Shown here: piece after piece, positions 37,672 to 40,247 of the stretch | How positions within the stretch are numbered: position 1 is the first letter of the stretch | Layout of the letters: each line of letters opens with the position of its first letter | Source of the DNA: Bdellovibrio bacteriovorus W | GTDB taxonomy: Bacteria > Bdellovibrionota > Bdellovibrionia > Bdellovibrionales > Bdellovibrionaceae | Assembly: GCA_000525675.1 (NCBI GenBank) | Contig: CP002190.1 | Coordinates: 186,001 to 250,000, forward strand | DNA length: 64,000 nucleotides | Direction: 5' to 3' | The notes under the pieces: generated by a model | The model's input: only the letters and a program-made list of their open reading frames with translations | The model's database searches: none | What the model was told of the DNA's origin: nothing | Translations under genes and position numbers: made by a program

Positions 37672-39729
37672 TTAGAGTGAGAACGCGAGCGATAGCTTAA
37701 ACAGTCTACGCAATTCAGGATAAAGATATATGTGCCCGTATTGAGTAGGGGACTCTTTCCAGTGATGGTGATCAAAGAGATTGTAAATCTCAAAATTCCA
37801 ATGAAGATCCGAATTGTAGATCTTAGATTGCCAACTCGAGAGAAGATCAAATCGCGTCCATGGCGAAAGTTCTAAAGAGTTATCGGCGGTGATCGCTCTT
37901 TTTCCCTCGTAAGAGGACTGGAGAAAAACTTTAGCGTTCAGCGAAGACCGCAAAGAGTAACCAAGGCCCCATCGAAACGATTGATCAGGCACGTTGACGG
38001 GACGCTTGCCATTAAGGGATGGATCTAGATGATGGTGAGTCTCTTCTGCCTTAAGAAGAGTGAGGCTCGAGGCAAGGTGCCATCTGCCGATATCATTCTT
38101 AAAGTTTATTTCCGCTCCCAAATGCTCTTGCAAACCATCCTTTTCAAACAGACTGCCAGTATCGGTGATTGAAGGTCGATCTATCTTAAATACACTGATG
38201 GCCCAAAGTGGCAGCAGCGAACGGATTCCTACTTCGTATTGATGGGTGCGGGCATCAGGTAAAAATTCACCAGCTTTTAAATAGGAAGATTTATTTGGAG
38301 TGACATAGGACTCAATCCCTTCGGCATAGCTAAAGAAAATATTAGTTGTCCGATAGTTTGCCGAAACTCCTAGCCAAGGAAGTGTAAAGTTTTGACTAAA
38401 ATCAGTGGGCCGAGAACTATCAGTACGAAAAGACTTCCTCTCTAAATGAGTCAGGCGAAGCCCCGAAGATACTTCAATATTTTCAAAACCGAGGCTATAG
38501 GAAGCATGAACCTCGTGGGATTGAGCTCTACGATTTGTATTAGGATCAAGCTTGGTGGGGTTTTCAGGAAGTGGGGCTGTGCCATCGGCGTTCCCTTGGC
38601 CTACTATATTATATGCCTGTGCCTCGTAATCTTCGGTGCGATAAGAGTGCTGAGTGCCAATACTAAATCCGTGAGTGAGGTGATGGAGCTTAAATTGTTT
38701 TTGAGCTAAAAGTTTTACTCCATAGGTTTTGCGCCATTCATTTTCACTGCGGTAGTCATAAAGATCATAGCTGCCGTCGGAACAGAATCGATCGAAACGA
38801 TTTTCCGTAGAACATCCATAAGGATAGTTGAGGCGATCATCGGTTTTTAAGATCTGTAATCCCAAAGTTGCAGAGGTGTCCCAGTCTTGAAGTCTTGAAG
38901 AAAGGCGAGAGCTTGCCGTGAGTCCGTCAAAGACAACCGGCTTTGCCCAAGCTTGTTTATTGATATTCAAATCAGGATTCTTTAAGGAAGGAACGCGATT
39001 GCCCCATAGACTGGTGGTGGCTTGGCTGTATTGAGAGTGTTGGCTCCACTCAATCTCTGACTCTAGGACTGTGTTTTCTGAGAATAAATAATTGTGAGAG
39101 AAGGCAAGTAGGTAAGCATGGCCCTTGCTGTTTTCAATATGCTCTTGAAGTTTTTCCGCAGCGAGAATCCAGCGCATTTGTGATTTTTGACTCAAGGGAT
39201 GGTTGATGTCGCCAAGAAGTAAGAGAGCTTGGCTATCAGTACCTTGTATCTTTATTTTTTCAAATCTTTCGAGTTGCGGGCGTTTGACCTGATAGTTCAC
39301 GGCCCCTCCCGGTGAGGCTGATCCCGCCTGAAATCCAGACACCCCTTTGATGATGTCGAGGCTTTCTTTATTGTAAAAAGAAAGCGGGCTTTCTGCGGAG
39401 ATGAGCAGACCTTCGCGATAGTAGTTGAAGCGATTGTCCAGAGTGTAACCTCGAATGTTTAAATGCTCATAGTAACCACTGGCATTATAGCTATCGGTGA
39501 TGGAGGCATCGGACTTTGTAAGGTCAGAGAGCTTTTCAAGATGCTCTCTTTCGACCGAGGCCTTTTTGATGTTGAGAGGAGTTTCTAGAATCGAGGGAGC
39601 AAGTCCCGTAAATTCAGGCTGTGTCTCTTGGCTTTGTTGAACTTGTATCGGCTCTAAATGAACGGACTCTTGAGCATGGGCTTTTAAATACATGAAAGCC
39701 GCGAGGCATAGAACAATGAGAATGCGCAT
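37672..39729 (-). CDS. TonB-dependent outer-membrane receptor, predicted thiamine uptake
   Basis: This 685-residue receptor has a signal peptide (IVLCLAAFMYLKAHA-Q), a TonB-box-like EPIQV, a plug domain (LNIRGYTLDNRFNYYREGL and SPGGAVNYQVKRP) and a 22-strand-type barrel. By sequence it falls with siderophore receptors, but a TPP riboswitch precedes it, so the cargo is more likely thiamine or a derivative. The true start is the ATG at 39729 with AAGGAGGAAAT; the longer frame to 39855 runs through the riboswitch. No TonB, ExbB or inner-membrane thiamine transporter is in the window. Confidence 0.9.
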   Translation of the reverse strand: MRILIVLCLAAFMYLKAHAQESVHLEPIQVQQSQETQPEFTGLAPSILETPLNIKKASVEREHLEKLSDLTKSDASITDSYNASGYYEHLNIRGYTLDNRFNYYREGLLISAESPLSFYNKESLDIIKGVSGFQAGSASPGGAVNYQVKRPQLERFEKIKIQGTDSQALLLLGDINHPLSQKSQMRWILAAEKLQEHIENSKGHAYLLAFSHNYLFSENTVLESEIEWSQHSQYSQATTSLWGNRVPSLKNPDLNINKQAWAKPVVFDGLTASSRLSSRLQDWDTSATLGLQILKTDDRLNYPYGCSTENRFDRFCSDGSYDLYDYRSENEWRKTYGVKLLAQKQFKLHHLTHGFSIGTQHSYRTEDYEAQAYNIVGQGNADGTAPLPENPTKLDPNTNRRAQSHEVHASYSLGFENIEVSSGLRLTHLERKSFRTDSSRPTDFSQNFTLPWLGVSANYRTTNIFFSYAEGIESYVTPNKSSYLKAGEFLPDARTHQYEVGIRSLLPLWAISVFKIDRPSITDTGSLFEKDGLQEHLGAEINFKNDIGRWHLASSLTLLKAEETHHHLDPSLNGKRPVNVPDQSFRWGLGYSLRSSLNAKVFLQSSYEGKRAITADNSLELSPWTRFDLLSSWQSKIYNSDLHWNFEIYNLFDHHHWKESPTQYGHIYLYPELRRLFKLSLAFSL

Positions 39730-39774
39730 ATTTCCTCCTTGGTAAATGGTTGGGAAATCACGGGCAAACCCATG

Positions 39775-39857
39775 GTAGCTTCCCTGCGCGAGCATGATCT
39801 CTTTCAGGTTCGAAGGGTTTTTCTCAGCCGTTTTTTCAAACGACACCCCTAGCACGT
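39775..39857 (-). promoter_or_regulatory. TPP (thiamine) riboswitch
   Basis: On the minus strand the conserved TPP-riboswitch blocks appear in order: GCTAGGGGTG, a variable helix, GGCTGAGA, a short loop, CCCTTCGAACCTGA, and CGCAGGGAAGCTA. The CUGAGA and ACCUGA pieces are the invariant pyrimidine-binding core, and the ends can pair to close P1 with one bulge. The start codon lies about 46 bases downstream, after a small GGG-TTT-CCC-type hairpin, so thiamine pyrophosphate would lower receptor expression. Confidence 0.92.
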
Positions 39858-39865
39858 GGCTTTTA

Positions 39866-39892
39866 TTTATAGTTTTGCTAGAGGCTTGTCAA
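39866..39892 (-). promoter_or_regulatory. Promoter for riboswitch and TonB receptor
   Basis: On the minus strand, TTGACA (39892-39887) and TATAAA (39871-39866) are separated by 15 bases. The transcript would start just upstream of the riboswitch. The spacing is shorter than ideal. Confidence 0.55.
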
Positions 39893-39977: not shown

Positions 39978-40247
39978 ATGACTATTGAGCATAAGCAGAA
40001 TGAAAAGTTCTTTTCCCATGTTCCTGGGGGCGAAGCGCATTTGATGTATGAAAAAGAAAATAATATTTTAGATATCTTTGAGGTTGTTGTGCCGGTGGAG
40101 TCTCGCGGAAAAAACATTGCAGAGTCTTTATTGAAAGAGGCTTTGAAATTTGCAAAAGAAAACAATATGCAGATTATTCCAACGTGTCCTTATGTGAAAA
40201 AGTGGTTTGAAAGGCATCCTGAGGAGGCCTCAATTCTAAAACACTAG
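39978..40247 (+). CDS. Small GNAT-like acetyltransferase (YjdJ type)
   Basis: The 89-residue protein is a minimal GNAT fold of the Acetyltransf_CG type: VVVPVESRGKNIAESLLKEAL forms the acetyl-CoA loop, and IPTCPYVKKWFERHPE matches the family's conserved end. Members may use an active cysteine (here Cys in PTCPY). The substrate is not known. An AAGGAG ribosome binding site lies before the ATG. It is divergent from the riboswitch-controlled receptor. Confidence 0.82.
   Translation: MTIEHKQNEKFFSHVPGGEAHLMYEKENNILDIFEVVVPVESRGKNIAESLLKEALKFAKENNMQIIPTCPYVKKWFERHPEEASILKH

Follow-up and report, generated by a model that had tools for sequence, protein, structure and literature searches.

In Escherichia coli, the thiM TPP riboswitch is a translational OFF switch that controls a salvage kinase. 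In Bacteroides, the TonB-dependent receptor OMthi/OMR1 (BT2390) is linked to a TPP riboswitch, and its role in thiamine uptake is supported genetically (PMC5613172). A thiamine operon with a TPP riboswitch and a TonB-dependent receptor, predicted to be a thiamine transporter, has been published for Variovorax (PMC10409787), and omr1 receptors under a TPP switch have been described in SAR86 and Flavobacteriales (PMC10881298). The combination of a TPP switch with a TonB-dependent receptor for thiamine is already a known kind of system, and the statement in the initial annotation that such receptors were predicted mainly in Bacteroidetes is too narrow, given the Variovorax and SAR86 cases. For predatory bacteria, the iCH457 model notes an incomplete thiamine pathway (PMC7529429). 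The literature search found no paper joining Bdellovibrio, the TPP riboswitch, thiamine, and a TonB-dependent receptor. As far as that search shows, the apparently new elements are the conservation of the arrangement in Bdellovibrio, the cassette common to Burkholderiales and this genus, and the case for thiamine-phosphate import made from gene content.

The window is the whole stretch of DNA that was analysed, 64,000 nt of the Bdellovibrio bacteriovorus W genome, and unlabelled coordinates are window positions. The locus is most probably a TPP-repressed translational switch on a TonB-dependent receptor for thiamine compounds. The aptamer and the elements around it were located as follows.

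39764..39860, minus strand: TPP riboswitch aptamer (RF00059), from cmscan and the congener alignment
39853-39851/39780-39778, minus strand: aptamer helix P1, model pairs mapped
39850-39847/39817-39814, minus strand: aptamer helix P2, model pairs mapped
39844-39840/39831-39827, minus strand: aptamer helix P3, model pairs mapped
39808-39805/39786-39783, minus strand: aptamer helix P4, model pairs mapped
39801-39799/39792-39790, minus strand: aptamer helix P5, model pairs mapped
39864..39892, minus strand: promoter-like TTGACA (39892-39887) and TATAAATA (39871-39864), by eye, tentative

The aptamer was matched to RF00059 using cmscan at 60.3 bits (gathering score 54.3 bits; E 2.5e-9; model positions 1-105, untruncated), which confirms the TPP riboswitch proposed for the minus strand upstream of the receptor. 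The CUGAGA and ACCUGA core elements and the AGGAGG site that had been read at 39730-39892 are each present on that strand. The closing stem P1 is weak, with three canonical pairs and mismatches at the outer two model pairs. In an alignment of 19 genus aptamers, the core is invariant, the pairing of P3 is kept despite substitutions on both strands, and P3a is absent from the window's aptamer and from all the others. No second TPP switch scored above the cut-off in an RF00059 scan of the 3,006,992-base genome (3.0 Mb); the next-best match (20.6 bits) lies inside a phosphatase-like coding sequence and was taken as chance. The promoter-like pair just before the aptamer has a short spacing of 15 nt, and no consensus promoter before the aptamer is among the sites listed by the consensus scan.

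The gene behind the aptamer was delimited using its start site and neighbouring elements.

37672..39729, minus strand: TonB-dependent outer-membrane receptor of 685 aa, predicted thiamine/thiamine-phosphate receptor, from domain, model, and orthologues
39734..39739, minus strand: Shine-Dalgarno site AGGAGG, 4 bases 5' of the ATG, from sequence

The mechanical ORF from 39855 reads across the aptamer. A better start is the ATG at 39729, 34 nt from the last aptamer position, since it gives a signal-peptide-like N-terminus and is the start used in congeners. The gene is apparently monocistronic. The protein is a TonB-dependent transporter, with a plug domain (PF07715, over cut-off) and a beta-barrel; its AlphaFold model (pLDDT 75.7, pTM 0.79) matches transporters of this class, and TonB proteins (TonB_C) are encoded in the genome. 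The end branch of the window receptor is 1.56 vs a median of 0.23 among congeners, an unusually fast evolution, so this receptor may have drifted. The upstream intergenic region is common with a divergent small GCN5-type acetyltransferase gene (Acetyltransf_CG) at 39978-40247 on the plus strand.

For the genus comparison, 24 genomes were used (this one and 23 others). The TPP switch was found in 19 of the 24 and the receptor in 20, and the two are adjacent in all 19 genomes having both. The neighbouring genes vary between congeners and no operon is visible. Judged from the sequence comparison, the pairing of switch and receptor is not accidental. Neither element was found in G004, G008, G013 (88% complete), and G016. 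In congener G003 (L060), the receptor lies 24 nt behind a GTPase-like gene and is without the switch, an apparent riboswitch loss.

Two alternative folds were computed for the leader between the aptamer and the start codon.

39752..39784, minus strand: predicted anti-sequestor hairpin, from fold prediction (p 0.2 for this leader)
39730..39758, minus strand: predicted sequestor covering part of the Shine-Dalgarno site, from prediction (p 0.44 for this leader)

The predicted anti-sequestor pairs GGGAAG of the aptamer 3' strand (39784-39779) with UUUCCC (39757-39752), encloses CAUGGG-UUUG-CCCGUG, and is incompatible with aptamer P1 and with part of P4, and the predicted sequestor pairs AUUUCC (39758-39753) with GGAAAU (39735-39730). 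The 5' leader would sense intracellular TPP and reduce receptor translation when the ligand is bound. At low TPP, GGGAAG would be available for pairing with the linker's UUUCCC, so that AGGAGG stays open and the receptor is made; with TPP bound, the aptamer would hold GGGAAG, UUUCC would pair with the Shine-Dalgarno region, and translation would drop. In the ligand-free minimum-energy fold of the window leader, the Shine-Dalgarno site is hidden as well, and the ON state would therefore need to form during transcription, before that site emerges.

Leaders of two types were distinguished among the 19 congeners. In about half (9/19), a simpler layout is seen, with the start codon 5-7 nt after the aptamer AGGGA, so that the aptamer's own AGGGAAG must serve as the Shine-Dalgarno sequence. 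The other 10, including the window's, have a linker of ~47-83 nt, in which a CUUCC-like segment has two possible pairing partners, the 3' strand of the aptamer and the Shine-Dalgarno site further downstream; versions of these alternative pairings with 8-9 bp are found in G011, G015, and G019. Against shuffled linkers, neither fold of the window leader was significant (anti-sequestor p 0.20, sequestor p 0.44); significance was obtained for G011 (both folds), G015 (sequestor), and G020 (sequestor), and on combining eight leaders using Fisher's method (p ~0.003 for the sequestor and ~0.02 for the anti-sequestor). Most leaders had given a negative result in an earlier, cruder pairing test. The statistical support for the expression platform is genus-wide, and the claim of a proof for the window alone was dropped.

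An aptamer that is real but acts on transcription (through termination or Rho), or that has decayed in this species, would agree with the weak platform statistics of the window leader, its weak P1, and the long receptor branch. We regard this as unlikely, as no intrinsic terminator-like site was found on the minus strand between 37500 and 40300, the start codons 5-7 nt after AGGGA in 9/19 congeners leave room only for translational control, and the aptamer core is invariant. Translational repression is the most likely mode.

Relatives of the receptor were collected by a receptor-alignment scan of 84,980 species genomes, which was seeded by two conserved peptides and has partial coverage. Among the best 80 of 158 matches, those outside the genus came almost only from Burkholderiales, at 35-40% identity, and a TPP-aptamer motif lay just upstream in 48 of the 78 loci outside Bdellovibrio in this set. 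Of the 18 Burkholderiales loci scanned with RF00059, 14 exceeded the threshold. The 30 loci lacking the motif were mostly from Variovorax, and in 27 of them a ThiE reading frame stood directly before the receptor; Pfam TMP-TENI confirmed this frame for L119 only, and the others were assigned by likeness to L119. The V. paradoxus operon runs from the TPP switch through a CytX-like permease, thiO, thiS, thiG, and thiE to the receptor; thiD lies on the opposite strand (thiO, thiG, and thiD were identified by reading the sequence). The receptor is linked to a TPP switch or a thiamine operon across lineages, and the thiamine-linked cargo put forward in the initial annotation draws its support from the adjacency within the genus, the pairing in Burkholderiales, and the Variovorax thiOSGE operon.

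A siderophore or some other cargo, with the TPP switch tying the receptor to the general metabolic state, was weighed against this. The earlier remark that the protein resembles a siderophore receptor by homology was borne out. Its best NCBIfam match is the siderophore family TIGR01783, and the nearest solved folds by structural comparison are BauA, FemA, and FhuA (TM 0.75-0.79, 16-17% identity), which would lead a homology-based annotation to iron. The TIGR01783 score is 151 bits, below the curated cut-off of 223.5 bits, and the protein is not placed in the family by it. The structural comparison could not have indicated thiamine, since the matches listed include no thiamine receptor, and the same fold neighbourhood includes the cofactor receptor PqqU. 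The sole TPP switch of the genome guards this receptor, and its relatives stand in the Variovorax thiOSGE operon and, in two phyla, next to TPP aptamers. Taken with this context, a siderophore or unrelated cargo is improbable, and a receptor for thiamine compounds is preferred.

The thiamine gene content of the B. bacteriovorus W genome was then set beside the receptor. ThiC, ThiE, and thiamine pyrophosphokinase (TPK catalytic domain) were not found in this genome; a weak ThiE match was rejected as a nitronate monooxygenase. A transketolase, which is a TPP enzyme, is encoded, and with no ThiC, TPK, or ThiE, its cofactor TPP must derive from imported thiamine compounds. ThiL was found over cut-off. 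The thiamine kinase search took in TPK and ThiL, and with ThiL as the one thiamine-phosphate kinase that it recovered, TMP or TPP would be the most economical imports. PnuC/PnuT was not found in the genome, and PnuT as an inner-membrane partner was rejected on finding it in none of 60 genomes. A ThiBPQ-like ABC operon is encoded; its binding protein scores 202.6 bits against the thiamine subfamily TIGR01254 (cut-off 93.4 bits) and stays below the cut-off of the stricter thiB equivalog. The operon is not under a TPP switch here, and its counterpart in G040 is directly behind one.

A route for the cargo can be proposed from this inventory. The receptor would carry thiamine compounds over the outer membrane, and the imported compound would be handed to the ThiBPQ-like ABC transporter and used as thiamine phosphate, either as TMP converted to TPP by ThiL or as TPP directly. 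Use of thiamine phosphates would be the easiest course with ThiC, ThiE, and thiamine pyrophosphokinase missing and ThiL present, and the gene content hints that they are imported. The prey is a plausible source of thiamine, as proposed initially, on the grounds of the missing biosynthesis genes. A thiamine precursor (HMP or thiazole) as the cargo in place of thiamine or its phosphates is very improbable: TPP switches often control precursor transporters, and a CytX-like permease occurs in the Variovorax operon together with biosynthesis genes, but the Bdellovibrio genome lacks ThiE and precursors could not be joined there, which would leave a precursor receptor useless.

Presence of ThiL seemed at first to track the switch convincingly within the genus. 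This marker was dropped because the genomes without a strong ThiL carry a divergent kinase resembling ThiL, which scores 100-115 bits. This kinase, under the thiL cut-off, was seen in G014 (L080 7561-8574), where thiL is its best match, and also in G004, G008, and G016. In Bdellovibrio and G040, a conserved gene just upstream of the thiBPQ-like genes encodes a small membrane-like protein of ~160-170 aa (L194 3317-3799; L063 8471-8989), which has no NCBIfam match where checked; in G040, the TPP switch lies between its gene and thiB.

Other TPP switches in the same order as Bdellovibrio precede a thiBPQ-type ABC operon (G040), thiM with a thiE-thiD fusion (G029; 50.7 bits, under cut-off), and thiC (G042). 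In G045, a switch precedes an SSF sodium:solute symporter (L066 8656-7144), a candidate thiamine or precursor transporter. In G043, a switch of 56.7 bits stands directly before an orphan gene for a 139-aa protein (L065 2009-2523), which has no Pfam match, is possibly secreted, and is possibly thiamine-related. In G048, a switch precedes a different TonB receptor (L067 8219-6087). This receptor barely aligns with the window receptor (22% identity, over a short stretch only), which suggests that thiamine receptors of the order arose more than once.

In a comparison of a small set of aptamers, the receptor-linked aptamers of Bdellovibrio and Burkholderiales share 66% mean identity and both lack P3a. 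The thiC aptamers of the same Burkholderiales have 45-47% identity to either receptor-linked group, and other aptamers of Bdellovibrio's order have 50-52% in the same comparison. On the strength of these sequences, the receptor-linked aptamers appear to be one type across both groups. The receptor tree splits the two groups by one branch, and the pattern, on an unrooted tree and a small aptamer set, fits joint inheritance or transfer of switch and gene between the groups in either direction. A broader reading, which we offer tentatively, is of a mobile switch-receptor cassette of Bdellovibrio and Burkholderiales through which TMP or TPP may be imported intact, so that the predator would live on the prey's cofactor via ThiBPQ and ThiL alone.

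The proposed TPP-repressed thiamine receptor assigns a likely cargo to a protein that annotation would name a siderophore receptor. What is known of the cofactor needs of predatory bacteria comes mostly from models, and the proposal would supply a specific way for them to obtain a vitamin; it predicts that predators import thiamine phosphates instead of making thiamine. In many Burkholderiales genomes, a receptor family could be renamed on the basis of the conserved pairing.

Compared with known systems, the locus resembles Bacteroides OMthi/OMR1 in having a TPP riboswitch before a TonB-dependent receptor, a likeness of context. OMR1 is accompanied by pnuT-tnr3 partners and biosynthesis genes, whereas Bdellovibrio has an apparently monocistronic gene and no PnuT-type transporter, TPK, ThiC, or ThiE. 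The Variovorax receptor, which we infer from the matching operon to be that of PMC10409787, is homologous (~36-38% identity) and belongs to a TPP-switch thiamine operon. There, the receptor gene closes the thiOSGE operon and the organism has biosynthesis genes, whereas the Bdellovibrio gene follows the switch directly, on its own, and the biosynthesis genes are missing. The TIGR01783 receptors (BauA, FemA, and FhuA) share the plug and barrel fold; the window receptor differs in scoring under the family cut-off and in having a regulatory and genomic context of thiamine. As in E. coli thiM, the aptamer 3' strand and the Shine-Dalgarno site are predicted to compete for a single anti-SD segment; the thiM switch controls a salvage kinase and the one here an outer-membrane receptor.
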